Assembly (NCBI GenBank): GCA_023144005.1
Contig: JAGLGN010000020.1
Coordinates: forward strand, 136,941-200,940
Length of the DNA stretch: 64,000 nt
Reading direction: 5' to 3'
DNA from: a bacterium
GTDB lineage: Bacteria > AUK180
Shown: positions 36,001 through 55,821 of the stretch, piece by piece
How positions within the stretch are numbered: position 1 is the stretch's first letter
Layout: every line of letters starts with the position of its first letter
Made by a program: the position numbers and the translations under genes
Notes under the pieces: model-generated
Database searches by the model: none
What the model was told of the DNA's origin: nothing
The model's input: only the letters and a program-made list of their open reading frames with translations

Positions 36001-38269
36001 AGCTCAAGTTTACCGCGCCGATCGCCTCGCCTGTTGATGCCGAAAGATCCGAAATATCAGCTGGCGGTACGGCATCGGACGGTTGACCGTAACTTGTTAT
36101 TTCCAATTTCCATGAATTGATCTGCCCCGTATCCTGCCCCGCATTATCAGAAACAAATAACTTCCAGATACCGGAACCGTTCTCTCCGATAAAGTCGTCT
36201 AATTTACCGGGGCCGGCCTCTAATGTATTCGTATTGTACCAGGTAACGATATTATCCGCCGAGCCGCCGCCTTTATTGTGCAGCGTTGCCTCGGTCCCCT
36301 CGGGTGAAATAACCTTGACGATCAGGTCGCCGATATAAGTATGTGTGATATCGCAATAAACATTTACCTCTGAAATGGCGCCGACATTTGATAGATCCTG
36401 CGAGCTGTTCACGCCGGAAGCGCTGTTGTCCGGTATCGCCTTCGGCGTATCAGAGCTTGTAAATGTATTCTGTGAAGGTGTGCCGACTATAATGCTGAAT
36501 CCCACTGATTTGCTATAAGACCCGTCAGCACTTATGTTCAATGTAAAATTCACCGTATGCCCTGCGGGACAACCGGCATTTATAGCTACCTGATAATATG
36601 GAGAATTACAGGTCCCCGTTGTATTGTGCCCTATATCCGAAAAAGTCGCATAGCTATCATTTATCGTTACATAGCTGTCAGATTCGGAAAGCGTCGCAGA
36701 TACTCCGGTCGCGCCGCCGCCGTTATTTTCTAATGTGACCCTGAAATAAAAGGTTTCACCCGGTGCGGCATAATGATCGCCTGAATCGTCTATATAATTT
36801 GAATGATAAGTTATATCAGGAGTCGCCGAGCCGCCGAGAAGCTGATAGGCGGCATAAACATCTATTACCCCTTTGCCGTAATTATTATCCTCTTCTCTCT
36901 GGCCGGGGCCATAGACCGCGGTGTTATATAGGGCGTTCTTGATATCGTTAACACTTGCTGACGGCTTTGCCTGCAGCAATAATGCAGCAGCACCAGCAAC
37001 ATGCGGACATGCCATTGATGTGCCGTCACCATATTTGTAGCCGGTATTACCGTCACCTGCAACAGACCATACCTGAACACCGGGCGCGGAAACCTCCGGC
37101 TTTATTGTTGTACCCGTACCACAGGTAGAAGGGCCTCTTGATGAAAAATCCGCAATGGTGTTCGCGCTGTCAACCGCACCGACCGCAAAAGCATTGATAG
37201 CTGATGTTATTCTACTGGCGGGAGAACCGATCGTTTTTGAACCCGGCCCTGAATTGCCAGCGGAAAAGAAAAGGACACAGCCGGCTGCTTCACAATTGTC
37301 TATATAGGAATAATATCCGCTATCACAAACACCACCGCCATAGGCAGTCGTCGCTCCCCATGAATTATTTAATATATCGGGAACATCATCAGAGGTAGAT
37401 GAGTTGCCGTCGGGATCCGCCAGCCACTGAAAACATTTGATCGTATTTTCTTCGGATGCGCTGCCGCTGGTATTGAACATTCTTACAGCTATCCACTTTG
37501 CGCCGGGAGCCACTCCATACTTGATACCGCCGGAGACATCCTCGCCGACTATTGAACCCATTGTATGCGAGCCGTGCTGCCAGGTATCGACACCGCCGTC
37601 TTTCGGAATAGTGCTGCCTTCCCATGGATCGAACCAGCATTGGGAATTGGGCTTTGAATTACCGAGCCACTTATCTTTCAGGTCTTTGTGATAATAATTG
37701 ACACCCGTGTCCATGTTCGCGATGATAAGGCCGGTTCCGTCATAGCCCTCCGCCCACATGTCATCGGCGTTTATCAGTTTTACACCGTAATCCTTTACCT
37801 CAGCCCTGACGCCTCTGACGGGTTGATTGGCAAATTCATTTTCGGGAATGAAAAATTTCAATTCTGCACGGACAAGTTCAACATCGTCTCTTGCCGCGAT
37901 CTCGTATATAACAGCCTTTTTTGCGGTTACAGTGAATCCGTTGAATATCCAAAAGGAAGTATATCTTTCTACATCCGATTTTAATTGATGCCGCGCAAGA
38001 ACATCCTTGAGCTCTACTTGTGTCGAAGCCGCTCTGTCCGTAAGAGTATCTATTACCTGCTTGTGAATTTCTGATCTTGTATTTCCTACTCCGCGAAGAT
38101 CCTCGGAGAGCATCCTTGCGTCTACTTGATCCTTGAGATGGACGACTACTGAGATATAATCCTCATCGCCTGCTTTAATTAACATATCCTGCAGATCTCC
38201 CCCGATCTCATTTGCATTCAATGAAATAGTAAAAAGCGATACCAAAAATATTAAAAATAACTTTTTCAT
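30014..38269 (-). CDS. Giant subtilisin-family (S8) surface protease with repeat domains and C-terminal sorting-like domain
   Basis: 2751 residues with a signal peptide (about 1-19). The catalytic triad is complete: Asp187 (NMDTGVNYY), His232 (QHGSHTMGS) and Ser418 (GTSMACPHVAGAAAL), with oxyanion Asn301 (NNSWG). A propeptide precedes it (about 20-160). Downstream are proprotein-convertase P domains (about 600-720 and 1180-1300), three or more Fn3 domains, and repeated ILLVDDD...NSGGHLLF domains of DUF4350-like type (about 850, 1430 and 1900). A TolB-like propeller (about 2130-2400) and a C-terminal PNPFKP...GIYFVVF FlgD/type-IX-like domain (last ~115 residues) complete it. It probably degrades extracellular protein while anchored at the surface. 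It has its own promoter at 38298-38326. Confidence 0.9.
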   Translation of the reverse strand: MKKLFLIFLVSLFTISLNANEIGGDLQDMLIKAGDEDYISVVVHLKDQVDARMLSEDLRGVGNTRSEIHKQVIDTLTDRAASTQVELKDVLARHQLKSDVERYTSFWIFNGFTVTAKKAVIYEIAARDDVELVRAELKFFIPENEFANQPVRGVRAEVKDYGVKLINADDMWAEGYDGTGLIIANMDTGVNYYHKDLKDKWLGNSKPNSQCWFDPWEGSTIPKDGGVDTWQHGSHTMGSIVGEDVSGGIKYGVAPGAKWIAVRMFNTSGSASEENTIKCFQWLADPDGNSSTSDDVPDILNNSWGATTAYGGGVCDSGYYSYIDNCEAAGCVLFFSAGNSGPGSKTIGSPASRITSAINAFAVGAVDSANTIADFSSRGPSTCGTGTTIKPEVSAPGVQVWSVAGDGNTGYKYGDGTSMACPHVAGAAALLLQAKPSASVNDIKNALYNTAVYGPGQREEDNNYGKGVIDVYAAYQLLGGSATPDITYHSNYIDDSGDHYAAPGETFYFRVTLENNGGGATGVSATLSESDSYVTINDSYATFSDIGHNTTGTCNSPYYQVAINAGCPAGHTVNFTLNISADGSYSKSVGFSIIVGTPSQNTFTSSDTPKAIPDNSASGVNSSQDLSNVGAISEVNVYCDITHTYIGDLIVKVISPEGTEATLHNKGGGSADNIVTWYNTNTLEAGPGKLDDFIGENGSGIWKLFVSDNAGQDTGQINSWKLEITSYGQPSDAVPPADISDLSASTGEAIGAVNLSWTSPGDDGASDTATRYVIKYNTVNITDGNWISSSALSNIPSPKLAGSSESLTITGLTEGQLYYFAIKTEDEVPNSSGLSNVSSATAKAASAILLVDDDNGATSESYYKTALTNGGFTYDYWNVKNSGSPASSKLSQYQTVIWFTAADYQTTLTSTDESNLISYLNSGGHLLFVSHDYLYQLTGGTSGNITQNFAHNYLKVNSVTNDIGDSYETSANGVAGDPISNALNLTLSGTSPITNYADSITTSDGVTIFKNSKPDPCGIRYDNGTYRTVFLAFPFINISSSASRDTLITKVIDWLDNGGGASDTTAPAAISNLNAAAGAQAGVIDLSWTAPGDDGTSGTAAAYEIKYNTVNITSSNWTSSNNISNPSAPKSSGSGEAISISGFTAGTLYYFAIKTKDEVPNTSGISNVASATPPGTTNELNYTSSDTPKNIPDNNTSGVESIINVSENYTIASVRIYTDIKHTYRGDLLVKVTSPAGTPVTLNNRGGGSADNLIGWFPDALTASGPGALSDFVGQSSSGAWKLHVDDNYAQDTGRIDSWKLEITYNGGGATDEVPPAKITDLAITKLSATSIKLTWTAPGDDGSEGDAAAYIIKCMTAPIYESNWSNASDITGEPAPAASGTQETLTISGLTSGNTYYFAIRTEDEIPNLSDVSNNAWLYLGEPPSDPTTILLVDDDGGSTNVETYYKNALDTNSYSYDNWVVSASGSPSAVTLKNYNIVIWFIGGTYTNTLTATDETNLKSYLNSGGHLFFCGQDYLYEITGGADGAVTGKDFCNNYLKISYVDNDVNDNSQTSRAGDPISNGLNLTLNASSPITNYSDDFDTTGEWFYKDSAGYASATRVENSTYKLVFMALPYENINSATTQAQLMDNIVQYLSAGPAAPTGLAVFNPNEDGTLNISWNSSPDTIVLGYKLYYELSDTTQFNVVANVSKTPKTSLSTTGRNTSSALNVNSLSLLTEKSGSYRVLQSTDGSFYDEPPVSPIDVGINTNLQINNLINSSKYKVWVTAYGSGNEGDRSSEESGTPTVSDNQFYFTCEIDDTDATGGVKNGCLDPGEQNVKVIVTLINNGSATAYNPTATLQKWDSADSNYSINSNSSAYADIASYGGTVICQTPYTVNVSTDCPVGHTISLQLNASGSNDYSTKFYFDTFVGQAQVLLVRDDDWDYLLTDGGKIKQALVDADITFAEWDTILYGSPNFTSGSSSNMNIAPYQAVVWFTGLGYDATLTNYDEENLRNYLNCGGNLFLSSQDYLWDRGQISSFAHNYLHIDSYYGDAQSNQQTGIADDPISDGMIFDLSYAFTDYSDDLIPLSDAQGILINNNGNYGGIRYPADGVPSDYRVVFFAFPFESIVDTGYVGCNKQDVMQRVLRWLTGFDYDSTITSGDVVLFPEWSNDGQKIAYLYREVSGETNIRVTERLSGNSVANTIDITNTLDDVSHVSQISWSYDDQYIIFGKRIGDFLRIAKVKYDGTQKGASELYQPTNALYLGSYTDPDYSDGAYQNDGKSRIVISACGDIWVYEPNNTSNADSGLKRITNLSDPLSTYAVVDKLYQPKWSEDGNKITFVDRWPDSSSYPGDGDIYTIDNVQNIISGGREPVSNWSDPDLYAVAASTYPEWSPSFSLDGTMVSYNFDYNASFENVNFWTDPAGEFSSTDFDAYKRDSLGVGSADLLEAKSYNEGLIKWAPAGGDVFTYISRWSDGTYHLTTFNDSSIGGFTVKKFKAEEEFYTLCDNSRSSVTIPTYLFTEHDGDLRIVVPSYIPGCSSNLLPIGEYREFSIDGARPEIGEELITVVIPFTAPAIRKIRDIQAIGLYYRNSAESKWEKVESEYTIDKKRNGNFTAAVDKLGIYGLFYDKNFKAKAIDDLSLITIVPNPFKPMDDDDDTGKTEGGIIFNNLPDNIKKITIYNISGEKISQWKESDEGTVIVYVKTTDAMDPATYVQQYYPTFITGINGGVARWIVKNDQYEDVASGIYFVVFEDADGNTKVKKAAVIK

Positions 38270-41160: not shown

Positions 41161-41199
41161 TTCTCCCCGGAACCGTTTGCACCGGGCGTTTCCTTCTCT

Positions 41200-41324
41200 C
41201 ATCCGCTCAACGGGAGCCCGGCAGCGCCGGGCGACCAACCCAAAAGAGTTTTGAACCATTTAAGCGACATTGACATTTTTAACGGCAGGAATGAATGGTG
41301 GCGAAGCCGAAAATATCCAATTGT
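41200..41324. repeat. 125-bp hairpin module, copy 1
   Basis: About 94% identical to 41509-41633. It contains the perfect hairpin GCCCGGC-AGC-GCCGGGC. A related but different hairpin, GCACGGC-GCA-GCCGTGC, lies between the copies at about 41415-41431. Confidence 0.8.
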
Positions 41325-41508
41325 GGTTCTTCTCCCAAATAGTTGGCCTTTTCTTCTCCCTCTACTCACTTTTTTCTATTTTCTTTTCTCTGCTTTGTCC
41401 TCTCCCCCTCACTCGAGCACGGCGCAGCCGTGCGCCCCACCGAGAGTTCCGGAAGGAGCAGGTGTTCTAATACATAGATATGTTAACTATTTCTTTATTT
41501 CCTTCCCG

Positions 41509-41633
41509 CATCCGCTCAACGGGAGCCCGGCAGCGCCGGGCGACCAACCCAAAAGAGTTTTGAACCGTTTAAGTGACATTGACATTTTTAACGGCCTGAA
41601 TGAGTGGTGGCGAAGCCAAAAATAGCCAATTGT
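41509..41633. repeat. 125-bp hairpin module, copy 2
   Basis: Same unit as 41200-41324 at an offset of 309 bp. The flanking 41634-41842 holds a further degenerate direct repeat of AAGACGGA-CAAAACTC type (near 41719 and 41811). Confidence 0.8.
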
Positions 41634-44327: not shown

Positions 44328-44356
44328 TTGACTTTATTCATACGATATTCTATAAT
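44328..44356 (+). promoter_or_regulatory. Strong promoter of the rex-MBX operon
   Basis: TTGACT (44328-44333), exact 17-nt spacer, TATAAT (44351-44356). The predicted start site (about 44363) falls in the Rex-type inverted repeat. Confidence 0.8.
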
Positions 44357-44360
44357 GTAT

Positions 44361-44380
44361 GTGAAAGTTATCACTTTCAC
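44361..44380 (+). promoter_or_regulatory. Putative Rex operator at the transcription start
   Basis: The 20 bases GTGAAAGTTATCACTTTCAC form a perfect inverted repeat (7-bp arms, 6-nt centre) just after the -10 box. GTGAAA/TTTCAC are Rex half-sites, but known Rex sites place them about 4 bp closer together. Autorepression relieved by high NADH is the expected logic. Confidence 0.65.
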
Positions 44381-44400
44381 TTAACATTGGAGGCAAAGCC

Positions 44401-45060
44401 ATGCGCAATAACAGTTTTGACAATGTTCCCGAGAGTATTGTAGGGCGATTAGCATCGTATCACAGATGTCTCAAGAATGCCGCTTCTACTGGGCAAACGG
44501 TCATCAAATCGTCTGATATTTCTAAATTATGCGGCATCAAAGCAACCGTTGTTCGAAAGGATCTCACCCATTTCGGGGAATTCGGCATCAAAGGCAAGGG
44601 CTATAATATTATCACCCTATCCTCTAATATCGAAGAGATCATGGGATTGAACACCGAGAAAAAGGTCATCCTTATCGGAGCGGGCAATCTTGGTACCGCA
44701 CTTCTGAAATACCCCGGCTTCTCCGGCGCGAATTTCAAATTTCTCGCAGCATTCGATATAGGGGCGGAAATAATCGGAACATCCATCAATTCCGTTCCGA
44801 TCCTTCACATTGATAAGTTGGGTGCATTCCTCAAAAGCAATGAGGTTCAGATAGCGATCCTTACCGTCCCCTCGCAGGAAGCGGAAACGATCGCATCTCA
44901 ACTTCACAATTGCTCAATCAAGGGGATCTTGAATTTTACCTCCGCCATCTTGAAATCTGATGACGGGAAGTTCTATATAAGGAATATCGATCTGTCCAAG
45001 GAATTGGAAGTGATCTCGTTCTGTATGAAGAAATGTTTAAAAAATAAGGAGGAAAAATGA
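44401..45060 (+). CDS. rex: Redox-sensing transcriptional repressor Rex
   Basis: 219 residues. The N-terminal winged helix (about 1-80) contains the recognition segment IKATVVRKDLTHFGEFG, close to the canonical Rex motif. The Rossmann domain starts at about 85 with GAGNLGTALLKYPGF (93-98 GxGxxG) and includes FDIGAEIIG and ILTVPSQEAETIA. A C-terminal domain-swapped helix ends the protein. Rex dimers bind DNA when NAD+ dominates and release it when NADH rises. GGAGG lies 7 nt before the ATG. It overlaps mrpE by 4 nt, so it is coupled to the complex genes it probably controls. Confidence 0.95.
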   Translation: MRNNSFDNVPESIVGRLASYHRCLKNAASTGQTVIKSSDISKLCGIKATVVRKDLTHFGEFGIKGKGYNIITLSSNIEEIMGLNTEKKVILIGAGNLGTALLKYPGFSGANFKFLAAFDIGAEIIGTSINSVPILHIDKLGAFLKSNEVQIAILTVPSQEAETIASQLHNCSIKGILNFTSAILKSDDGKFYIRNIDLSKELEVISFCMKKCLKNKEEK

Positions 45061-45551
45061 AGCTAAGCCGCTACATCTTTGTTCTCTTGATCATTCTCCT
45101 GCTTTGGATATTATTGGTTTGGCCGATAGATGCAGGGAAATTGATACTGGGCGCGGGGATCGCTCTGATCACCGCAATTCCCAGCTCAATGCTTTTCAAA
45201 ACGGGGATGAGTGCCTTGAACCCGATGAAACTCTTATGGATCATCCTCTATATCCCTTTCTTTCTCTATAAATTACTGATGGCAAATATTCAGATCGCTA
45301 TGGTGGTCCTATCACCCAAAATCAATATAAAACCCGCCATATTAAAGGCAAAGACGGACCTGAAGAATGATACTGCCAAATTATGGCTCGCAAATTCCAT
45401 AACCCTTACCCCGGGGACATTAACGGTCGATGTAAAAGGTGATGAGATCTTTGTTCACTGCGTAAATCCGGGAGATAAGAAAAACTGGCTGAAGGAGAAG
45501 GTTTTAATGCCCTTTGAAAAGTTCTTGAAAGGAGGCGTTGATGAAAGCTGA
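45057..45551 (+). CDS. mrpE: Mrp/MBX complex subunit, MrpE (MbxA-like)
   Basis: 164 residues with two to three N-terminal membrane segments (about 6-40 and 58-80). The MrpE signature ANSITLTPGTLTVDVKGDEI occurs at about 113-132. It is part of the Mrp-type sodium/proton antiporter module that MBH/MBX complexes share. It has ATGA overlap with rex and is the first of 13 tightly packed subunit genes. Confidence 0.93.
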   Translation: MKLSRYIFVLLIILLLWILLVWPIDAGKLILGAGIALITAIPSSMLFKTGMSALNPMKLLWIILYIPFFLYKLLMANIQIAMVVLSPKINIKPAILKAKTDLKNDTAKLWLANSITLTPGTLTVDVKGDEIFVHCVNPGDKKNWLKEKVLMPFEKFLKGGVDES

Positions 45552-45810
45552 ACTTCTGCAGTGGATATGGGTCGCTATGTTATCAACAGGAATTATCCTC
45601 GTCTTTATTCGGCTGCTCATCGGAAAGGGCCGGCTCAACAGAATAATGGCACTGGATACCTTGACTACGATAACCACTTCCCTTTTGATGGTCATCTCCA
45701 TATACTCGGGAGAAAGGCTCTTTCTGGATGTAGCCATTGTATATGCGATTCTGGCGTTCACCTCGGTAATTGCCGTCGCTAAGTACTGCGATGCAGGGAG
45801 GCGGTCATGA
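45541..45810 (+). CDS. mrpF: Mrp/MBX complex subunit, MrpF (MbxB-like)
   Basis: 89 residues from the ATG at 45541, preceded by AGGAGG at 5 nt spacing; a TTG one codon earlier is less likely. Three membrane helices are seen with the MrpF pattern RLLIGKGRLNRIMALDTLTT and AIVYAILAFTSVIAVAKY. It overlaps mrpE by 11 nt and mrpG by 4 nt. Confidence 0.92.
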   Translation: MKAELLQWIWVAMLSTGIILVFIRLLIGKGRLNRIMALDTLTTITTSLLMVISIYSGERLFLDVAIVYAILAFTSVIAVAKYCDAGRRS

Positions 45811-46136
45811 TTATCGCCGGAGGAATTCTAATATTTATAGGTACTCTTTTTTCCATGCTGAGCGGCCTGGGTGTGCTGCGCATGCCGGACCTTTATAATC
45901 GTTTACAGGCAGGAACAAAGGCATCAACACTGGGAGTGATCTCGATCGCATTAGGCGGTGCATTTCTAATGCCCGATCAATGGGCCAAATTCCTTTTGAT
46001 AGCGGTTTTCGTTGCCGCCACCAACCCCATTTCCTCAAGTTATCTCGCCAGGATAAAGCACAAAGAGGATGAGGAGGGAATATCTGCTTTATTGGAAAAG
46101 GATCAATTTGAAGAGAAGGAAGGAGTGACGAAGTGA
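45807..46136 (+). CDS. mrpG: Mrp/MBX complex subunit, MrpG (MbxC-like)
   Basis: 109 residues. The MrpG motif GVLRMPDLYNRLQAGTKAST is at about 21-40, with three membrane helices and a charged tail (HKEDEEGISALLEKDQFEEK). ATGA overlap with mrpF. Confidence 0.94.
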   Translation: MIIAGGILIFIGTLFSMLSGLGVLRMPDLYNRLQAGTKASTLGVISIALGGAFLMPDQWAKFLLIAVFVAATNPISSSYLARIKHKEDEEGISALLEKDQFEEKEGVTK

Positions 46137-46387
46137 GTATCATATTGATAATAACACTTCTTGCGGGAGTGGTCATGATCGGAGCAGCGATATACGCTGT
46201 TTTCTCACAGAATATTCTTCATGCGATCATCGGTTTCGGAGTTATCTCTCTTCTGGCTGCTCTGCTGTTTGTGATAATGAAAGCTCCGGATGTAGCAATC
46301 ACCGAGGCATCCATCGGGTCGGGGCTTACCATCGCGGTATTTCTTTTTGTCTTGAAAAGGATCAAGAAGGAGGCGAAGGATGAGTAA
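46133..46387 (+). CDS. MBX complex subunit MbxD-like (DUF4040, MrpA C-terminal-like)
   Basis: 84 residues with a GTG start overlapping the mrpG stop. Three membrane helices with the conserved block KAPDVAITEASIGSGLTIAV, found in MbhD and in the C-terminal part of MrpA. In antiporter models this Glu lies on the ion path. Confidence 0.9.
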   Translation: MSIILIITLLAGVVMIGAAIYAVFSQNILHAIIGFGVISLLAALLFVIMKAPDVAITEASIGSGLTIAVFLFVLKRIKKEAKDE

Positions 46388-47174
46388 TCCGAGAATCTCC
46401 AGATATATATTTTCTCTGATACTGACAGTCCTGCTGGGCTATGCGGTGTTTGCCGCTCTTGGAACCCAGGGAGGAACTCTCAGATTCGGGCCGCATTCCC
46501 CCGCTTCCAGGATTTCCGGGGCAATGATCGAAAAGAACATAGAAGGGGCAAGGCCCAATTTGACTGCCAAGAACCATACGGGCCCATCCAATGTCAACTT
46601 CGCTCCCGGATCAAAAGGACTGGAGAACGGAGCAGCCAATATAGTATCCTCAATAGTCGCCGATTACCGCTCCTTTGACACTTTTGGAGAGGTACTTGTA
46701 CTCTTTGCGGCTGTTACCGGGTTCATGCTTTTGCTGCCCGATAAAAAAGGCAAAAATAAAGGGGTAACCTCGGAGGCGCCTAATTTCGTTCTTGCAAAAG
46801 CCGCGCCTATAGTATTCGCCTTTGCCATGATAACCGGAGTATATATCTCATTCAACGGGCATCTTACACCGGGAGGAGGATTTGCGGGAGGAGCGGTGAT
46901 CGCCACAGGAATACTGATCCTTGTTCTTTCGGGAAATGAGTTCAATTCCCAATTACTTTCCCTGACCGAAACAATAGCTGGACTGCTTTTCTTAGCAGTG
47001 GGAGCAGCGGGACTTGTTCTGAAGGGTAATTTCCTACAGAATGTGATCCCGACAGGCGTTTTGGGATACATTTTCTCATCCGGAATAGTTCTGGCGCTTA
47101 ATCTGATAATAGGACTTAAGGTCGGAGCGGAGCTGGGCTCATTGATACTTGCCGGCGGAAAAAAGGAGATATAG
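46380..47174 (+). CDS. mrpB: MBX complex subunit: MbhE-like part fused to MrpB/MbxF-like domain
   Basis: 264 residues. The first ~125 hold one membrane helix (about 10-28), a periplasmic-type loop rich in Gly/Asn and a second helix, as in MbhE. Residues about 133-264 carry the MrpB domain (ISFNGHLTPGGGFAGGAVIA is its hallmark) with four helices. The single frame joins what are often two genes. It overlaps the previous gene by 8 nt and abuts mrpC. Confidence 0.9.
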   Translation: MSNPRISRYIFSLILTVLLGYAVFAALGTQGGTLRFGPHSPASRISGAMIEKNIEGARPNLTAKNHTGPSNVNFAPGSKGLENGAANIVSSIVADYRSFDTFGEVLVLFAAVTGFMLLLPDKKGKNKGVTSEAPNFVLAKAAPIVFAFAMITGVYISFNGHLTPGGGFAGGAVIATGILILVLSGNEFNSQLLSLTETIAGLLFLAVGAAGLVLKGNFLQNVIPTGVLGYIFSSGIVLALNLIIGLKVGAELGSLILAGGKKEI

Positions 47175-47537
47175 ATGTTTACAATATTATATACCATATC
47201 TCTTGTACTGGCACTGATAGGCATTTTCGGAATGATATCACAGAAAAACCTTATAAAGATACTTATCTCGCTGAATATTCTTGAAACCGGAGTGAATCTC
47301 TTTCTGGTCACAGCGGGATGGTCGGCGGAAGCCAAGGTACCGATCATAACCGGAAAACTGGGACTTCCCGCTGCTGTGAATTTTGTTGATCCCCTGCCGC
47401 AGGCACTCGTGCTTACCTCCATAGTTATCGGACTTGGGATCACAGCGGTTGCCCTGGCCCTCATATTGAGGTATTACAGAAAAACCGGAAGCTTGACCCT
47501 CGAACCCTCAGAATTTCAGGCGGGAGGTGAAAGATGA
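47175..47537 (+). CDS. mrpC: MBX complex subunit MrpC/NuoK-like (MbxG)
   Basis: 120 residues with three membrane helices. The NuoK/MrpC hallmark KILISLNILETGVNLFLVTA, including the conserved Glu, is followed by DPLPQALVLTSIVIGLGITA. ATGA overlap with the next gene. Confidence 0.95.
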   Translation: MFTILYTISLVLALIGIFGMISQKNLIKILISLNILETGVNLFLVTAGWSAEAKVPIITGKLGLPAAVNFVDPLPQALVLTSIVIGLGITAVALALILRYYRKTGSLTLEPSEFQAGGER

Positions 47538-48991
47538 ACACATATCTGACACTCCTTATTATACTGCCTGTATTCGCCGCGTTCCTGATGTACTTCTTCA
47601 GAAAAGCGGACAATTGGGTCAATATCGCCATCATGTCCTTTGTCACTCTTTTCGGAACGGTCTCCTCATTGGTCATGCTCTTCTCGCAAGGGATGGAAGT
47701 CGTAGCTCTTGGGGGATGGAAGCCGCCTTACGGGATAGTTCTGGTAGGTGATCAGCTCTCTTTGATCTTTGTGGCGCTTATTTACCTCATCGCCTATCTT
47801 ATCGCGCAATTTGGAGGGATCGAGCGGACAAAAACAAACGATCACAAGTCCGGCGCCCTCTTCATGCTGCTTACTGCCGCGGCGGCAGGAATGATCCTGA
47901 CTGGAGATCTTTTCAACTTCTTCGTTTTCATGGAATTAGCGGCGATCTCCTCCTATGTGCTTATTGCAAAGGGGGGATGCAGGAGCTCATACACGGGAGC
48001 TTTAAAATATATCTTCACCGGAGGATTGGCATCGATGCTTATGCTCCTGGGGATCGGAATACTCTACAATACCACCGGAACACTGAATATCGCGCATCTG
48101 ATGGTCCGTATAGGATTGGTAGGCGATAGCCTGAGATGGCTGGCGCTGGGACTTGTCCTTTGCGGAATACTCCTGAAAATGGAGGTATTCCCTTTCAATT
48201 TATGGGTGCCTGAATCATATAAAGGCGCGCCTGCCGGAATGAAAATAGTACTCGGCTCCATTCTTTCCACGGTCGGCGGATATGCGCTCATCAGGCTATA
48301 TCCCATTCTGATACAGAATCCCGGGCTGATCAAAATGCTTCTCCCGCTTGCTTTGCTTTCCTTAATACTGGCAGAACTTGCGGCATACCGGGAAAAGCAT
48401 ATCAACCGTTTACTGGGTTACTCTTCCGCCGGGCAGATGGCATTGGTAATGCTGGCGATACTCTTTGGTGGAAGAATCGGCATTTATGCCGCGATCTTTA
48501 TTGTGATCGCTCATGCGATGGCGAAAGCCGTACTCTTTTTTGTCGGAGCTCATTTCAAAGAAAGCACGGGCTCCTCAATGTGGGAATCATACCGCGGCTT
48601 GAGTAAGATTTCCCCGATCGGAGCGGCTCTGTTTACGATTGCCGCGCTTTCATTGACCGGCATTCCCGGCATGATGGGATTCTGGGGAAAGCTGAGTATG
48701 ATCGGAGCCGGATTGGCTTCCGCCAAGTATTTCTCGATCGCAATAATTCTTATTATAACGATAGTAGAAGGCGTATACTTTTTAAGGATCTCCGGAACAT
48801 TATATCAGAGCACTGAGAGCGATGTCAAAGCGAAGGCATCATATCTGCTGATACCGGCAGTGATACTGGTCCTGATAATTGTGCTTGTCGGATTCTGGCC
48901 TGGATGCATCTCCAAAATAATAAATGGCGGAGTATCCGCGGCGGAGAGGAGTTCTGAATATGCAAAGCTTGTGCTTGACTACTTACTTTAG
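47534..48991 (+). CDS. mrpD: MBX complex antiporter-like subunit H (MrpD/NuoN type)
   Basis: 485 residues, about 14 membrane helices. Proton-channel landmarks of the family are present: Glu in FFVFMELAAISSYVLIAKGG, Lys in GALKYIFTGG, and WVPESYKGAPAGMKIVLGSI on the broken helix. A later Lys/His-rich helix is AIFIVIAHAMAKAVLFFVGA. It moves Na+ or H+ in response to electron transfer. Nine nucleotides separate it from the second antiporter-like gene. Confidence 0.93.
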   Translation: MNTYLTLLIILPVFAAFLMYFFRKADNWVNIAIMSFVTLFGTVSSLVMLFSQGMEVVALGGWKPPYGIVLVGDQLSLIFVALIYLIAYLIAQFGGIERTKTNDHKSGALFMLLTAAAAGMILTGDLFNFFVFMELAAISSYVLIAKGGCRSSYTGALKYIFTGGLASMLMLLGIGILYNTTGTLNIAHLMVRIGLVGDSLRWLALGLVLCGILLKMEVFPFNLWVPESYKGAPAGMKIVLGSILSTVGGYALIRLYPILIQNPGLIKMLLPLALLSLILAELAAYREKHINRLLGYSSAGQMALVMLAILFGGRIGIYAAIFIVIAHAMAKAVLFFVGAHFKESTGSSMWESYRGLSKISPIGAALFTIAALSLTGIPGMMGFWGKLSMIGAGLASAKYFSIAIILIITIVEGVYFLRISGTLYQSTESDVKAKASYLLIPAVILVLIIVLVGFWPGCISKIINGGVSAAERSSEYAKLVLDYLL

Positions 48992-49000
48992 GAGCAGACA

Positions 49001-50881
49001 ATGATATCTATTGGAGCAATGATCATTTTGGCGGTAGTATTGGCGCTGATCACCCGTGTCTTCCTAATGAAGCACAAATTACTCTCATGGGTGCTCTTCT
49101 CTGCATACACCGCATTTTCCGTTTTTGTTCTGCTGAAACTTTACGGCAATTGGAATTATTTTGAAACAATGAACCTTTCCTATCTTGTGGGCAGGATTAA
49201 TATGCGACCAGGATTCTTGAATAAGCCGCTGGGGTGGTTCTTTTCATTCTTCGTCATGGCTATGTCCTTTTTGAATTCGTTTTTTTCAATGGGATTTTCA
49301 AAGTCGAGCCATTCGAGAAATATCGTGCCCCATTGGCTGATGATCCTGGCAGCATCGCTGACGGTGTTCTTTACCAAGGATTGGCTGCTCTTCATTATCG
49401 GCTGGGAAACTCTGGGTTGGGCGAGTTTCTTTATCATAATGGGGGGAAAGCAGAAAAAATACAAGGATTCGATGAGTTATTATTTCTTCAGCCTGGTCTC
49501 GGGGATGCTTCTGATCGCCGCGGTATGGATGATAGGGATAAAATTCCGCACATTGAATATTCATACTACCACAAGGTCGATGATAATATTGGCGAAAAAT
49601 ACTCCATGGCAGGCATTTCCGACATTGCTTATGCTGACCCTGTCATTTCTGATCAAGTCCGGCGCATACCCGTTCCATATCTGGGCTCCTCGGGCGCATA
49701 AATCCGCCCCCGCTGATTTTTCACCCTTTATTTCCGGCATTATGATCAAATTCGGCATCTTCGGACTGCTGCTTTATGTTATACCGATAGTGAGCAAAGG
49801 TTATGCCGGCTATTCTATTTTCGGAATGCCGGTATTTGCATGGGTATTTTCATGGCTGGGCATCATTACTTCGGCAATAGCGACGGTACTCGCATTTTCA
49901 GAGAATGACGCAAAGAGGTTGATGGCATATTCTTCCGTAGCAAATGCCGGATACATAATAACGGCGATCTTTCTGGGAACTGCACTCGGTATCAAGGGAG
50001 GACTTCTTCACGCCTTCAATCATATGATCTTCAAGGCAGTAATATTTATGACCATCGCCGCCGTTGTTTACCGGACAGGTGAAACCGATATGAACAAAAT
50101 GGGAGGGCTGGCTTATAAGATGCCGATAACATTCATGACCTTCCTCCTGGGAATAATCGCAGCGGCAGGTATCGCACCCATGAACGGCTTTGTGTCAAAG
50201 TGGATGATCTATCAGGCGCTGCTTGGGCAGAAGCATTACTTCATGACAGTAGCGATGTTCTTTGCTTCCACCGGCGCATTCCTCTATCTTTACCGGGCAT
50301 TACACGCCATATTCCTCGGGCAGATCAGAGAGGTTCACGAAAGAGAAGTTAAGGAAGTTCCATTCCTTATGCAGATCCCGATGTGGATCGGTATGATACT
50401 GATGTTCGGCCTGGGCGTATTTCCCGGATATCTCCTACGGCCTATGATGCCGTTGATGAAGACCTTCGGAAGTTCCATTTCAGAATCTCTGAATGTCGTC
50501 CAGGGTTCGGTTGGGAGCCTGAATACCTTGTTCTCCACGGTGATCTTCATTCTTGGCGTGGTAATAGCCGCAGCGATATTCTTCCTTTCCGCTAAGACAC
50601 ATAAAACACCGATGATGGATAATTACACCTCCGGGGAAGACCCTGAAGAATGGAATGTCACCCCGAATAAATATCAATTTTCTTACGGGTTCTACGAACC
50701 CATTACAAAGATGTTCTCATGGGCACTGAAGCGCTCCGTGGATAAAGCGTATTTTAAGGCCTCATACATCCTTAAGATCATCGGACGGGAGATCAATATG
50801 ATCTTCACCGATCATAACAATTGGGGTTATGCCGCCCTCCTTGGGCTCTTGGCAATGATAATCGGGGGGCTTTTCTTATGA
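49001..50881 (+). CDS. MBX complex second antiporter-like subunit H' (NuoL/MrpA type)
   Basis: 626 residues, about 15-16 membrane helices. The channel Glu lies in LFIIGWETLGWASFFIIMGG and the broken-helix motif is PFHIWAPRAHKSAPADFSPF. LHAFNHMIFKAVIFM carries the central His/Lys. A C-terminal extension (about 540-626) contains the acidic DNYTSGEDPEEWNVTPNKYQ and a last membrane helix. Two antiporter-like subunits (H and H') distinguish MBX/MBS from MBH hydrogenase, which has one. Confidence 0.92.
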   Translation: MISIGAMIILAVVLALITRVFLMKHKLLSWVLFSAYTAFSVFVLLKLYGNWNYFETMNLSYLVGRINMRPGFLNKPLGWFFSFFVMAMSFLNSFFSMGFSKSSHSRNIVPHWLMILAASLTVFFTKDWLLFIIGWETLGWASFFIIMGGKQKKYKDSMSYYFFSLVSGMLLIAAVWMIGIKFRTLNIHTTTRSMIILAKNTPWQAFPTLLMLTLSFLIKSGAYPFHIWAPRAHKSAPADFSPFISGIMIKFGIFGLLLYVIPIVSKGYAGYSIFGMPVFAWVFSWLGIITSAIATVLAFSENDAKRLMAYSSVANAGYIITAIFLGTALGIKGGLLHAFNHMIFKAVIFMTIAAVVYRTGETDMNKMGGLAYKMPITFMTFLLGIIAAAGIAPMNGFVSKWMIYQALLGQKHYFMTVAMFFASTGAFLYLYRALHAIFLGQIREVHEREVKEVPFLMQIPMWIGMILMFGLGVFPGYLLRPMMPLMKTFGSSISESLNVVQGSVGSLNTLFSTVIFILGVVIAAAIFFLSAKTHKTPMMDNYTSGEDPEEWNVTPNKYQFSYGFYEPITKMFSWALKRSVDKAYFKASYILKIIGREINMIFTDHNNWGYAALLGLLAMIIGGLFL

Positions 50882-51768
50882 TTACCATGATATTAAACGC
50901 AATTTTATATTCCGTTGGAGGGATAATGGTCGGACTTCTCTTTATCGGCTTGGGCAGGATCATAACCGCCCGAGTACAGAGAAGGATAGGGCCGCCTTTC
51001 TATCAGCAGTTCATCGATGTGATAAAACTCCTCGCAAGGGAATCCATCTGGCATCATTGGATAATGACCCTCGGCTCAATAATGGCGCTGGGCGGATTGA
51101 TCGCCACGATGGTACATGTCCCCGTAGCCGGTTGGCTGCCTTATGATTCCGGCGGACCGATCTTTTTAATACTATATCTCGCAACGATAGGATATCTGGG
51201 AATGGCTATGGGGGTTTCCGCTTCGGGAAACCCGAATGCGCCGCTGGGGATCGGAAGAGCACTTTCACTGATGCTGGGATATGAAATTCCTTTTGCGGCG
51301 ATATTGATACTCTTTATAAGCTTAACCGGATCGTCGTCACTTACGGAAATAGCTGCGATGCAGACGGGTGGTTTCCTGAGCTGGAATATCGTCAAATTCC
51401 CTCTGGCGTTCATTGCCGCGGAGATCACTGTACAGGCGATGATGGCGGAGAAACCCTTTGACCAGATGATCGCGCCATCGGAAATAGCATCAGGGCCATT
51501 GGTCGAGCTCGGCGGAAAATTCCTGGGACTCGGAATGATTCAGATGGCGGTCGCCATTTACTTTGAAACGGCTATTATGGTAAATCTCTTCTTCGGCGGC
51601 GGGGCGAATATCTTCACCTTCACGCTGAAGCAATTCGGGGTTTACACCATTGCGATACTGATAAATTCTGTAATGCCAAGATATAAGATAGAGAACGCGG
51701 TGCGTTATATTTGGACGGTGCCGCTCGCTCTTATCATCATTCAGATGCTCATCGTCTTTTTAAGATAG
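50878..51768 (+). CDS. nuoH: MBX complex subunit M (NuoH-like)
   Basis: 296 residues from the ATG at 50878, which overlaps the previous stop (ATGA) and follows GGGGGG; the longer upstream frame lies inside the preceding gene. About eight membrane helices. NuoH signatures: RVQRRIGPPFYQQFIDVIKL near the start, GYEIPFA, and EKPFDQMIAPSEIASGPLVE. It anchors the peripheral arm and links redox chemistry to the pump. Confidence 0.94.
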   Translation: MITMILNAILYSVGGIMVGLLFIGLGRIITARVQRRIGPPFYQQFIDVIKLLARESIWHHWIMTLGSIMALGGLIATMVHVPVAGWLPYDSGGPIFLILYLATIGYLGMAMGVSASGNPNAPLGIGRALSLMLGYEIPFAAILILFISLTGSSSLTEIAAMQTGGFLSWNIVKFPLAFIAAEITVQAMMAEKPFDQMIAPSEIASGPLVELGGKFLGLGMIQMAVAIYFETAIMVNLFFGGGANIFTFTLKQFGVYTIAILINSVMPRYKIENAVRYIWTVPLALIIIQMLIVFLR

Positions 51769-51771
51769 GAG

Positions 51772-52353
51772 ATGAAAATGTTAAACGAAATAGAACAAAA
51801 CAGAAAAGAACGCCAAAGCGCTTGGGAGTATGTGATAAATTACTTCAGAAAAAGATCTATTTGGTTGCTTCATTACTGCACCGGCTGCGGCGCAGTGGAA
51901 CTTCCCCCTGTCATGACCTCCAGATGGGATCTGGAGCGCTTCGGTGTCGGGCCCATGGCTACTCCCAGACAGGCGGATGTATTCCTTGTCACGGGTTATG
52001 CGTCTATAAAGACATTAAAAAGGATGATACGGACCTATGAACAGATGCCTAAGCCGCGCTGGGTGATCGGATTCGGCGCGTGCACCATCAATGGAGGCAT
52101 TTATTACAAATCCTACAATGTGATAAATAAGCTCGACAGGTATATACCCGTAGATATCTTTATATCGGGCTGTATGCCCCGCCCTGAAGCCATACTCGCC
52201 GCATTGGAAGAACTCAGGAATATGATACAAAGAGGTGAAGCCAAGGGCTATGACAGATATGTCAAGAATTACGACTGGTATAAGAAAAATCAGAAAGAGA
52301 TACTTGAAAGAGAAGGGTCATTATTCGGGGAGGCGGACGATGAAAACAAGTGA
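51772..52353 (+). CDS. nuoB: MBX complex small subunit J (NuoB-like)
   Basis: 193 residues. The four ligands for the terminal [4Fe-4S] (N2-like) cluster are Cys36, Cys39 (HYCTGCGAVE), Cys104 (GFGACTINGG) and Cys134 (ISGCMPRPEA). The C-x2-C form is that of group 4 hydrogenase and MBX J subunits rather than the CC pair of complex I NuoB. The C-terminus is extended and charged. GGAG precedes the ATG. Confidence 0.93.
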   Translation: MKMLNEIEQNRKERQSAWEYVINYFRKRSIWLLHYCTGCGAVELPPVMTSRWDLERFGVGPMATPRQADVFLVTGYASIKTLKRMIRTYEQMPKPRWVIGFGACTINGGIYYKSYNVINKLDRYIPVDIFISGCMPRPEAILAALEELRNMIQRGEAKGYDRYVKNYDWYKKNQKEILEREGSLFGEADDENK

Positions 52354-52825
52354 CATCCTCAATAAGACCAAAGAACTTTTTCCATACATTTCGACCGAAT
52401 TGTTCGAAGAACAGCAGGGACGGATCAAAGTCGATAACGAACGCTTTCTTAATGTACTGGCCTATTTGAGAAACAGTTCCTTTGTTCATCTGGCGAATAT
52501 TTTCGCGGTCGACTGGATAGAGGAAAAAGAGTTCGAATTGAATTATAATCTCTGGTCCTATGACCATAACTCTTCAATAATCGTCAAGGTGGGGATACCG
52601 AGAGAGAAACCGGAAGTCACCACGGTTCTTGACCTCTGGGAACATGGCCAGGTTTACGAACAGGAGATCCATGAATTTTTCGGAATAGAGTTCGCGGGAA
52701 ACCCGGACCTCTCACCGCTATTTCTGCACAATTGGAAAGAGATACCGCCGATGAGAAAGGACTTCGATACGGAGGAATACTCAAAAAGAGCATTTGATGT
52801 CGGGGAAAGGGAAGGTGCAAAATGA
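52340..52825 (+). CDS. nuoC: MBX complex subunit K (NuoC-like)
   Basis: 161 residues from the ATG at 52340, which overlaps the J gene by 14 nt and has GGGGAGG upstream; the frame open to 52235 is inside the J gene. The NuoC core has SSFVHLANIFAVDWIEEKEF, then DLWEHGQVYEQEIHEFFGIE and the NWKEIPPMRKDF tail. ATGA overlap with the L gene. Confidence 0.93.
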   Translation: MKTSDILNKTKELFPYISTELFEEQQGRIKVDNERFLNVLAYLRNSSFVHLANIFAVDWIEEKEFELNYNLWSYDHNSSIIVKVGIPREKPEVTTVLDLWEHGQVYEQEIHEFFGIEFAGNPDLSPLFLHNWKEIPPMRKDFDTEEYSKRAFDVGEREGAK

Positions 52826-53967
52826 TAGATCTATTTACCGACATTACTGAGATCGCGAATAAAGACGGCAACAAGGTTTACGATATCTTCTTCGGCCCCA
52901 ATCATCCGGGAATGCACGGAAATTTCGGATATGTTGTGGACATGATAGGCCATTCGATCGCCAAGGCAAGGGTCAATGCGGGATTACTTCACAGAGGGTT
53001 TGAGAAGATAATGGAGACCAATCTCTGGCATCAGAACCTCTCATTGATCCCCAGAATATGTGTTGTGGACCCTGATCCGAACGAGGCAGCGTATTGCGGA
53101 GCCATTGAGAAAATAATGGGACTGGAAATACCCGAGCGGGCGAAATTCATACGGACCATCACATTGGAGATGTCCAGGATGACCTCCCATTTAATGGGGA
53201 TGGGATCCGTCGGCGGCGCGACCGGGCTCTATACCGTAATGTACCTGATGCTCGCTGACCGTGACCGGCTGCTTGATATGTTCGAATGGCTGACGGGTGG
53301 AAGGATATATCATATTTACAATATCCCCGGAGGAGTCAGAAGAGACCTTCCCAAAGGATGGAGGGATAAGCTCTATGGATTAATGGATTTTTTTGAGAGC
53401 AAACTCAAGGAATACGATGAAATACTCTATCGCCACCCCATCATTCACAAAAGATTGAAGGGTGTCGGTGTGATCACCGCCGACCAGGCAAAGAAATGGG
53501 GAATAACAGGCCCGAATCTCAGGGCGACCGGCGTAAAATTCGATACCAGAAAGGCGTATCCCTATGCGGCATACGATCAATTGGAATTCGATATACCCAC
53601 AGAGAAGGAAGGTGACGCATTGGCAAGAGCAAATCTTGTCCGCGCAGAATTCGAGGTGACCATTTCAATAATCAGGCAGGCATTGGACAAACTTCCTGAG
53701 GGAGATGTCAATATTAAACTGGGCAATCCGCTGAAGTTCAAGGTCCCTGAAGGAGAGGCATATGCGAAGGTCGAATCCTCCAAAGGGGAATACGGATATT
53801 ATATCGTTTCCACCGGAGGTATAAAGCCGTACCGCGTCTCCGTGAGAGGGCCATCCCTCCCCGCCGGACTGTTTTTATGTCATAAACACCTGCCGGGAAT
53901 GAGAATAGATGATGTTGCTCTGTGGATGAACACGCTTCAGATATGCGCGCCGGATTTTGACAGGTAG
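52822..53967 (+). CDS. nuoD: MBX complex large subunit L (NuoD/hydrogenase-large-subunit-like, non-NiFe)
   Basis: 381 residues. The N-terminal FFGPNHPGMHGNFGYVVDM and ERAKFIRTITLEMSRMTSHL are NuoD/MbhL landmarks. The two cysteine pairs that hold NiFe in hydrogenases are each half lost: Cys80-x2-Asp83 (PRICVVDPDP) and Cys375-x2-Asp378 (LQICAPDFDR at the very C-terminus). A [NiFe] centre is therefore unlikely and hydrogen metabolism by this subunit improbable. This matches the non-hydrogenase MBX/MBS branch. No hyp maturation genes are nearby. Confidence 0.93.
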   Translation: MIDLFTDITEIANKDGNKVYDIFFGPNHPGMHGNFGYVVDMIGHSIAKARVNAGLLHRGFEKIMETNLWHQNLSLIPRICVVDPDPNEAAYCGAIEKIMGLEIPERAKFIRTITLEMSRMTSHLMGMGSVGGATGLYTVMYLMLADRDRLLDMFEWLTGGRIYHIYNIPGGVRRDLPKGWRDKLYGLMDFFESKLKEYDEILYRHPIIHKRLKGVGVITADQAKKWGITGPNLRATGVKFDTRKAYPYAAYDQLEFDIPTEKEGDALARANLVRAEFEVTISIIRQALDKLPEGDVNIKLGNPLKFKVPEGEAYAKVESSKGEYGYYIVSTGGIKPYRVSVRGPSLPAGLFLCHKHLPGMRIDDVALWMNTLQICAPDFDR

Positions 53968-53976
53968 GAGAAGAAG

Positions 53977-55821
53977 ATGAGTATTGACAAAAAAAATATA
54001 ATCGCTCCCTATATGACATTGAAGAACCTTTTCAGAAAAACGGTAACGGTGAAATTTCCGAAGGAAGAATTGGATGTATTTCCCGGATGTCCGGGAGTTT
54101 CGCCCCAATACAGAGGGATACACGCGAATGATCATGAAGAATGCATAGGATGCGGGGCCTGTTCCGATATCTGCCCCACCGATGCCATTCGACTGATCGC
54201 CTTTGAGGGAGAACCCCGTGAGGGAGCCAAGAATCAAAGGCCGGAGATCGATTACGGAAGATGCTGCTTTTGCGGATATTGTGTGGATATATGTTCTACC
54301 GGTTCTCTTTCAATGACAAGAAAATTCATTCATATCGAATGTACACCGAAAACACCGGATCCTGAAAAAGAAGTTAATATGATCAAGGATAAGTTCATCC
54401 TGCTTCCCGATGAGAAAGGGCTGGACGATCTGGGTTGGAACACGCCTACTCCCCTGTCTTTATTGGACTTGGAAAGGGTCTCTATGGAGCAGTTATCTTC
54501 AGATCTAAGGAATGACTCCTTTGTTGAAATAGTGAAAGGATTTTCAAAAGAGCAGGCCGTAAAGGAAGCTTCAAGATGTATTGAATGCGGAATCTGTACG
54601 GATGCCTGCCCCGCGGGAATGAACATTCCGGAATACATAACTGCGATATGGGACAATGACAACAAGGCATCAGTGGAATGGATGTACAAGACGAATCCCC
54701 TGTCCAATGTTTGCGGAAGGGTTTGCACGCATGTATGTGAAACCGTATGCGCTATCTCTCACCGTGGAGAGCCCGTTGCCATCAGATGGCTGAAGCGCTA
54801 TGCCTTGGATCAGCTGAGCTCTGATGATGTAAAGAGCATTTCCGGCATAGACCAGATAAGATCAGCGAAGAAAAAGGTCGCGATCGTGGGAAGTGGGCCC
54901 GGCGGCCTTGCGGCAGCGTACTTCTTATCAAAAATGGGATATGCGATCACCATATTCGAAAAGAATAAAATGGCGGGCGGCGTCATGAGATATGGAATTC
55001 CTAATTATAGATTGCCGGATGAGGCACTGGACAAAGACATCGACGCGATAAAAACTCTTGGCGTGGAGATCCTGACAGAAATTGAAATAGGAAAGGCCAA
55101 AAAGATCTCACAATTACAGAAGGATTTCGATTTTGTCATCCTTGATACCGGTTTGCCCATAGGAAGAACCATCCTGCCTGATCTGAAGCATGATAAGTTC
55201 AATTTGTCAATTGAGATGCTTGAGGATATCTCCAGGGGAGAGGAAGTAACGGTAGAAAAAAAGATCGCCGTCATCGGCGGCGGAAATGTCGCGATGGACA
55301 TTGCCCGCAGTCTGGCAAGATTACAAAGGGTGAAATTCGGAGAAGTGAATATAACCGCGATATCCCTGGAATCACGGGAGGAACTGCCCGCAGACATCGA
55401 AGAGATCGAAGAAGCGATGGAAGAGGGTATCGTGCTTGAGCCCGGATGGGGAAATATGGAAGTTGATCTCGATAAAAAAACAAATGCTATCAAGGGCATT
55501 AAGATCATGAAATGTACACAGGTATTTGATCAGGATCATAGATTCAGACCTCTTTTTGATGAGGCGGATGTCAAGACGCTTCAAGTCGATCAGATCGTTG
55601 AAGCGATTGGCCAGGCACCCGATTATTCATTCCTTGATTCATATGAGAAGGAAGTCGAATTCAAGGGATTCTGCATAAAGACAGATGAGAATGGAAAGAC
55701 ATCCCTGGATTGGCTCTGGGCTGTGGGAGATATTATTGAGGGGCCGGATATCGTACATGCGGTCTCCAACGGACATATGACCGCACAGGCCATAGACCGG
55801 ATCGTTGAGGGAAATAAGTAA
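53977..55821 (+). CDS. Fusion of MBX N subunit (NuoI-like 2[4Fe-4S]) with GltD/NfnB-like FAD-NAD(P) oxidoreductase
   Basis: 614 residues in one uninterrupted frame. Residues 1-130 are NuoI/MbxN-like with two [4Fe-4S] sites (Cys56/59/62/66 and Cys96/99/102/106). Residues about 190-614 are GltD-like: cluster cysteines 201/204/207/211 and 246/250/254/258, FAD motif GSGPGG at 305-310 with GGVMRYGIPNYRLP after it, and dinucleotide motif GGGNVAMD at 434-441. A C-terminal WAVGDIIEGPDIVHAVSNGH binds FAD. The YRR arginines that bind the NADPH phosphate in GltD are replaced by Ser463-Leu464-Glu465, suggesting NAD(H). It would bring NADH/NAD+ into the complex. GGAG precedes the ATG. Confidence 0.93.
   Translation: MSIDKKNIIAPYMTLKNLFRKTVTVKFPKEELDVFPGCPGVSPQYRGIHANDHEECIGCGACSDICPTDAIRLIAFEGEPREGAKNQRPEIDYGRCCFCGYCVDICSTGSLSMTRKFIHIECTPKTPDPEKEVNMIKDKFILLPDEKGLDDLGWNTPTPLSLLDLERVSMEQLSSDLRNDSFVEIVKGFSKEQAVKEASRCIECGICTDACPAGMNIPEYITAIWDNDNKASVEWMYKTNPLSNVCGRVCTHVCETVCAISHRGEPVAIRWLKRYALDQLSSDDVKSISGIDQIRSAKKKVAIVGSGPGGLAAAYFLSKMGYAITIFEKNKMAGGVMRYGIPNYRLPDEALDKDIDAIKTLGVEILTEIEIGKAKKISQLQKDFDFVILDTGLPIGRTILPDLKHDKFNLSIEMLEDISRGEEVTVEKKIAVIGGGNVAMDIARSLARLQRVKFGEVNITAISLESREELPADIEEIEEAMEEGIVLEPGWGNMEVDLDKKTNAIKGIKIMKCTQVFDQDHRFRPLFDEADVKTLQVDQIVEAIGQAPDYSFLDSYEKEVEFKGFCIKTDENGKTSLDWLWAVGDIIEGPDIVHAVSNGHMTAQAIDRIVEGNK

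Follow-up and report, generated by a model that had tools for sequence, protein, structure and literature searches.

The closest described relatives of the system treated here are ion-pumping complexes of the MBS and MBX type. In the MBS of Pyrococcus furiosus, ferredoxin enters at subunit N and the J/L/M chamber drives pumping (PMC7684303). The Mbx of P. furiosus was formerly described as a ferredoxin:NADP oxidoreductase (PMC4596419). In Thermotoga maritima, mbxA is up 4.4-fold with sulfur, and Rnf coexists with MBX (PMC9431562). Here, we analyse a rex-mbx operon of an anaerobic bacterium of lineage AUK180, located at positions 44328-55821 of a 64,000-nucleotide stretch (hereafter the window; contig JAGLGN010000020.1, positions 136,941 to 200,940, forward strand). 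Its last gene encodes an N subunit fused to a GltD-type flavoprotein module. We propose, at about even odds (probability 0.5), that NADH feeds an MBS-type site reducing polysulfide or another disulfide, with low-gear ion pumping.

The window complex is well formed and of ordinary architecture, and the bacterial family to which it belongs is known. With P. furiosus MBS (6u8y) it shares all membrane and peripheral subunits, the three-cysteine proximal cluster and the proton axis of H'. However, MbsN is unfused, 208 aa long and fed by ferredoxin, and MbsH has K250 and H330, the equivalents of which are lost in the window. The MBX of Thermotogota, including that of T. maritima, has the same operon with a fusion directly past L, and in most cases the same NAD-type motif and StnC-type lysine discussed below. 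It differs from the window complex in that the window operon is headed by rex, in that identity is about 50%, and in that the window fusion stays under the curated cut-off of NF010590, which the T. maritima fusion exceeds.

The N-GltD fusion protein

The fusion gene (53977-55821; all genes of the operon are on the forward strand) encodes 614 aa and matches NF010590, PF14691 and PF07992. The N part has two NuoI-type [4Fe-4S] clusters (Cys 56-106); the rest, with Fer4_20 and Pyr_redox_2 domains, has two Fer4_20-type clusters (Cys 201-258) and Rossmann motifs for FAD (305-347) and NAD (432-484). All 16 cluster cysteines are kept in the 28 fused homologues aligned (28/28). The match to NF010590 (PRK13984) is full length (model positions 5-608 of 611, 771 bits). 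Because this is below the curated equivalog cut-off of 946 bits, reached in our searches by Thermotogota only, the window fusion counts as homologous to the curated equivalog without belonging to it. We considered whether N and GltD might be joined only through a frameshift or through the assembly; this is ruled out, since the open reading frame is intact in an independent metagenome-assembled genome (MAG), JAGLWT01, and in many other genomes. The covalent FAD-dinucleotide module seen on the last subunit in an earlier note on this DNA is therefore real.

The fused module shares its fold and FAD module with NfnB of NfnAB (4ylf, 5jca), with a TM-score of 0.82 to 5jca_L. Two sites set it apart from NfnB. 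After the second Rossmann motif, YRR is found in T. maritima NfnB and in the NfnB encoded by the window's own genome. This motif is replaced by SLE or CLE in the fused modules of the window (SLE), of its own class, of most Thermotogota and of Omnitrophota. Fused modules of Cloacimonadota, of Fermentibacterota and of one Thermotogota subclade carry YRR. From general knowledge of the GltD/DPD family, we take YRR to indicate NADP(H) and SLE to indicate NAD(H). In the YRR subclade of Thermotogota, nfnA-nfnB continues the mbx operon in 4/4 members examined (L092-L095; G024, G027, G019, G023), as expected if YRR stands for NADPH use and SLE for NADH use. The motif thus supports the use of NAD(H), not NADP(H), by the window module, as had been assumed.

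At the second site, K273 aligns with K170 of StnC, where NfnB has a Glu that ligates the FAD-proximal cluster. Lys is found at this position in the fused family. The numbering of StnC was checked on its sequence, in which C114, K170 and R239 are at their published places. StnC does not bifurcate (PMC10482914). Within StnABC (8oh5), it is a GltD module that feeds a [4Fe-4S] chain, as predicted for the fused module; unlike the latter, it is cytoplasmic, uses NADPH and sits on a NuoG-like scaffold. An arginine column near residue 359 was tried as the equivalent of NfnB R201 and dropped, since the StnC numbering places R201/R239 at R345, which is conserved everywhere. R345, the arginine of YRLP, corresponds to the Arg touching FAD N5 in NfnB, and StnC has this Arg too.

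Distribution of the fusion

In a sample of 103 Thermotogota genomes, with MbxL counted at 530 bits or more, MbxL is present in 70. In 69 of these the fusion follows, 15-103 bp past mbxL and on the same strand. The sole exception (L090, G028:C43, 1501-3500) encodes a truncated N of 164 aa; a GltD remnant is left out of frame, with nfnAB immediately behind it. This locus reflects either natural loss of the module or an MAG error. Among 399 Bacillota genomes, MbxL is followed by the fusion in 3/3 cases. A further 17 loci with lower scores and a complex I-like gene order were examined, and the fusion follows none of them. It also occurs in three further phyla, Omnitrophota, Cloacimonadota and Fermentibacterota, and in another family of the window's own class. 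Judged by these genomes, the N-GltD fusion is the normal form of MBX in bacteria rather than an exceptional one. The earlier note placed separate gltD-like genes near MBX clusters in Thermotogae and regarded the fusion as special; with the fusion in 69/70 Thermotogota and in T. maritima, separate genes are not the general state.

An MBS-type active site in J and L

The J, L, H and H' subunits each have their best match in P. furiosus MBS, with a wide margin for J (mbxJ, NuoB-like, 51772-52353; 6u8y_J 232 bits versus 130 for the next chain) and for L (mbxL, NuoD-like, 52822-53967; 6u8y_L 354 bits versus 151 for MbhL). The tree built from L subunits places the window sequence within the MBS/MBX clade (support 99/98); complex I and the group 4 hydrogenase of the same genome lie elsewhere in it. 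Window L lacks the Ni ligands: each former Ni site retains one Cys, in the motifs RICVVDP and ICAPDFDR. By contrast, the Mbh-type enzyme of the same genome has RICGIC and DPCYCC. Without the two CxxC Ni-binding motifs, and with L placed away from the hydrogenase, hydrogen evolution by the complex is ruled out.

In MbxJ, C39, C104 and C134 align with the proximal-cluster ligands C28, C93 and C123 of MbsJ. These three cysteines are invariant among the bacterial MBX aligned, and the MbxJ motif is the short CTGC of MBS as opposed to the CC of complex I. MbsJ C25 and MbsL C85 and C385 are dispensable in P. furiosus mutants (PMC7684303). Their equivalents vary or are lost among bacterial MBX. The cysteine pattern of bacterial MBX therefore mirrors the published mutant result, which argues that a sulfur-type site is in use. 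No NuoEFG, expected of a complex I, is encoded in the operon. Together, gene set, best matches and tree place the complex in the MBS/MBX clade and show it to be no hydrogenase and no complex I, in agreement with the type first proposed for it.

A second, deeply divergent MBX paralogue (44% L identity) is present in the window's own class (L009 and L006, G001; L033, G005). Both former Ni-site cysteines of its L subunit are gone.

Loss of the central lysine in the H subunit

Two antiporter-like subunits are encoded, MbxH (47534-48991; top PDB chain 6u8y_H, 249 bits) and MbxH' (49001-50881; top PDB chain 6u8y_X, MbsH', 231 bits). P. furiosus is the only archaeal MBS in the comparison that follows. 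Window MbxH has no equivalent of MbsH K250, the central Lys of TM8, nor of H330. The K250 equivalent is missing from all bacterial MbxH aligned (15/15, the window and JAGLWT01 sequences being near-identical) and that of H330 is kept in only one of the 15. In a separate comparison, the MbxH of locus L019 has Gly at the K250 position. Window MbxH' has equivalents of E128, K217, K248 and H336; among bacterial copies, K217 and K248 are kept in 17/17 and H336 in 16/17. The antiporter subunit of the Mbh enzyme of the same genome retains the equivalents of both K250 and H330. Read most simply, these sequences point to the disabling of one proton path out of two. Each electron pair would then move fewer ions, as would be needed with a smaller redox span.

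A candidate Rex operator

The rex gene (44401-45060; NCBIfam NF003995, 214 bits for a cut-off of 126) heads the operon. Upstream, a sigma-70-like promoter, TTGACT-N17-TATAAT (44328-44356, forward strand), is proposed from its match to the consensus only (11/12 positions); it is conserved in JAGLWT01. Directly after the -10 box lies a palindrome, GTGAAAGT-TATC-ACTTTCAC (44361-44380, forward strand), identical in JAGLWT01. The window contains a single copy of its core, TGTGAAN5TCAC, for 0.16 expected. A similar site, TTGTGAAAGTTCGAACTATCACAA, precedes the rex-mbx genes of a Fermentibacterota locus (L020), so that the rex-mbx arrangement is seen in two phyla. The exact canonical Rex site, TTGTGAANNNNTTCACAA, was not found upstream of rex at up to 3 mismatches; only the degenerate core and the palindrome are present. 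The T. maritima Rex operator also contains TTATCAC (PMC8836258). We regard the palindromes of the window and of Fermentibacterota as candidate Rex operators. Their position is consistent with the link to Rex that had been suggested. Since Rex is released from DNA by NADH (PMC8836258), rising NADH would take Rex off the operator. The genes that Rex normally derepresses are NADH-consuming ones, and such control fits an NADH consumer.

Proposed electron path

In the mechanism that we favour, NADH would reduce the fused FAD, which would act as an ordinary, non-bifurcating two-to-one electron converter. Single electrons would then travel along the two Fer4_20 and the two NuoI-type clusters and arrive at the proximal cluster of J with its three cysteine ligands. 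There, where the J/L/M chamber opens, they would reduce polysulfide or another disulfide-type acceptor, and this reduction would drive ion translocation, mainly via H' and the Mrp-like module. Because H lost its central lysine, the gear would be lower than in archaeal MBS. Ferredoxin would presumably no longer dock at N, and accumulation of NADH would switch the operon on through Rex.

Several observations weigh against this mechanism. The span from NADH to polysulfide is only tens of millivolts, so that coupling would be weak. The equivalent of the quinone-binding His of Nqo4, H38, is retained in the window and in Thermotogota and lost in MBS, and the acceptor may therefore differ from that of MBS. 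In the AlphaFold model, built on a shallow alignment, the N-domain and the linker are mostly below pLDDT 50-70. Finally, T. maritima MBX was modelled as driven by ferredoxin, not NADH, in a paper the text of which is silent on the fused module (PMC9431562).

Alternative readings differ in donor, acceptor or use of the flavin. The earlier note saw the complex as an ion-pumping ferredoxin:NAD+ oxidoreductase, a functional equivalent of Rnf, and this is the foremost of the alternatives, though we consider it unlikely. Electron transfer from ferredoxin to NAD+ spans a sufficient drop for ion pumping. The fusion does bring an NAD(H) flavin module to N, the known entry of ferredoxin in MBS, and the older description of P. 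furiosus Mbx (PMC4596419) points the same way. Rnf is a membrane complex of anaerobes that is linked to NAD(H) and pumps ions, as predicted for the window complex, but its subunits are unrelated, and no rnf homology was found within the mbx operon. Moreover, the contig that carries the mbx operon also encodes a complete rnfCDGEAB, with RnfC, D, E, A and B above family cut-offs, just as Rnf coexists with a fused MBX in T. maritima (PMC9431562). The earlier note had named, as a combination speaking against its model, the presence of Rnf and the lack of NAD(H) activity in this complex, of which the first half is found. The structure of MBS also suggests that an encounter of ferredoxin and NAD(H) at N would let electrons skip the conserved MBS-like proximal cluster and leave the J/L/M chamber idle. 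Finally, a producer of NADH under Rex control would run in the wrong direction. Equivalence to Rnf is thus not supported. Next in rank, and doubtful, is a dual-donor MBS: both ferredoxin and NADH would deliver electrons to N for reduction of one sulfur-type acceptor, with NADH as a side entrance. MBS accepts ferredoxin at N, the fusion adds an FAD and two clusters while the N clusters stay, and sulfur induces T. maritima MBX (PMC9431562). However, the Fer4_20 clusters need to be at tunnelling distance from those of N, where they would probably cover the ferredoxin surface, and the loss of K250 in H suggests a driving force below that of ferredoxin.

Two further schemes appear improbable. The fused FAD could bifurcate or confurcate electrons, so that NADH is coupled both to ferredoxin and to the acceptor in the chamber, since the nearest fold is that of bifurcating NfnB and the Arg at FAD N5 (R345) is conserved. 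Yet this Arg is shared with StnC, the ligand of the FAD-proximal cluster is the Lys of non-bifurcating StnC rather than the Glu of NfnB, SLE takes the place of the NADP site, and the window operon has no NfnA-like partner. Still less probable is an NADH:quinone oxidoreductase, a minimal complex I in which the GltD module replaces NuoEFG. Presence of the H38 equivalent and of one UbiA-family gene in the genome would favour it. Against it, the equivalent of Nqo4 Y87 is Val in window L, the J motif is that of MBS, and the sole UbiA match (41 bits versus 225) is far under every menA cut-off. An NADH-driven sulfur-type site with low-gear pumping remains our preferred reading. As to a sulfur-reductase marker elsewhere in the genome, the match to TIGR03385 is ambiguous: a full-length, 434-aa homologue of the CoA-disulfide reductase/NADH oxidase type scores below the cut-off.

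Operon layout

Thirteen MBX genes follow rex in the order A B C D E/F G H H' M J K L N, with overlaps of a few bases or gaps within about 10 bp. Family profile matches agree with the rex gene and the 13 overlapping genes first read from the DNA, including the two antiporter-like subunits. The order proposed then also stands overall, except that the gene labelled F is a fused E/F. Besides the genes described above, the operon comprises mbxA (MnhE/MrpE-like, 45057-45551; PF01899, 4.9e-33), mbxB (MrpF-like, 45541-45810; PF04066, 2.6e-16), mbxC (MrpG-like, 45807-46136; PF03334, 9.8e-23, and TIGR01300 above cut-off) and mbxD (MbhD, 46133-46387; PF13244, 8.7e-23). The single gene mbxE/F (46380-47174) combines MbhE and MnhB domains (PF20501 and PF04039). 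It is followed by mbxG (MrpC/NuoK-like, 47175-47537; PF00420, 2.1e-25) and, further on, by mbxM (NuoH-like anchor, 50878-51768; PF00146, 3.8e-52) and mbxK (NuoC-like, 52340-52825; PF00329, 2.5e-31). Gene order is identical in JAGLWT01 (L016), with 92-100% protein identity.

Other loci of the genome and the window

The same genome encodes NfnAB and a transhydrogenase resembling Stn/NfnABC. At locus L057 (G000:C20, 8260-13651), HydBC-like genes accompany a 1054-aa GltD-NuoG protein without the molybdopterin part; the locus resembles NfnABC of Thermococcus and Caldicellulosiruptor (9n5u, 9bov). The Mbh-type group 4 [NiFe]-hydrogenase (L084, G000:C26:1-20000) has its own Mrp module and lies beside an apparent group 3b hydrogenase operon. 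An apparent Mvh-type hydrogenase with an Hdr-like cluster adjoins hydrogenase maturation genes (L085, G000:C14:29000-48900). Finally, a probable bacterial microcompartment operon (L056, G000:C33, 5340-10650) includes a PduS-like homologue of RnfC as well as an aldehyde-dehydrogenase-like gene.

Elsewhere in the window, two 136-nt direct repeats, 93% identical and 309 bp apart, are located in an intergenic region (41189-41633). A 2751-aa protein (30014-38269), by eye secreted and subtilisin-like, has numerous repeats of fibronectin-like and proprotein-convertase-like type and ends in a sorting-type domain at the C-terminus.

Implications for bacterial MBX

We tentatively propose, with somewhat less confidence than for the window complex itself, that within the complex I superfamily bacterial MBX may be a branch of its own, driven by NAD(P)H and working in low gear. 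The donor would have moved from ferredoxin to the fused flavoprotein, with switching between NADH and NADPH (in a Thermotogota subclade, nfnAB joined the operon along with NADPH use). To match the smaller redox span, one of two proton axes would have been disabled. In open papers we found no discussion of such NADH-driven, low-gear signatures; closed reviews were outside that search. If the proposal is correct, T. maritima MBX would be a sulfur reductase using NADH instead of ferredoxin. Thermotogota, used for hydrogen biotechnology and in arguments on early evolution, would then have had their MBX assigned the wrong electron donor. The complex would also represent a complex I relative where a change of donor accompanies the loss of one proton-pump axis, making the relation between pumping stoichiometry and redox span directly testable, with T. 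maritima as a cultured relative.

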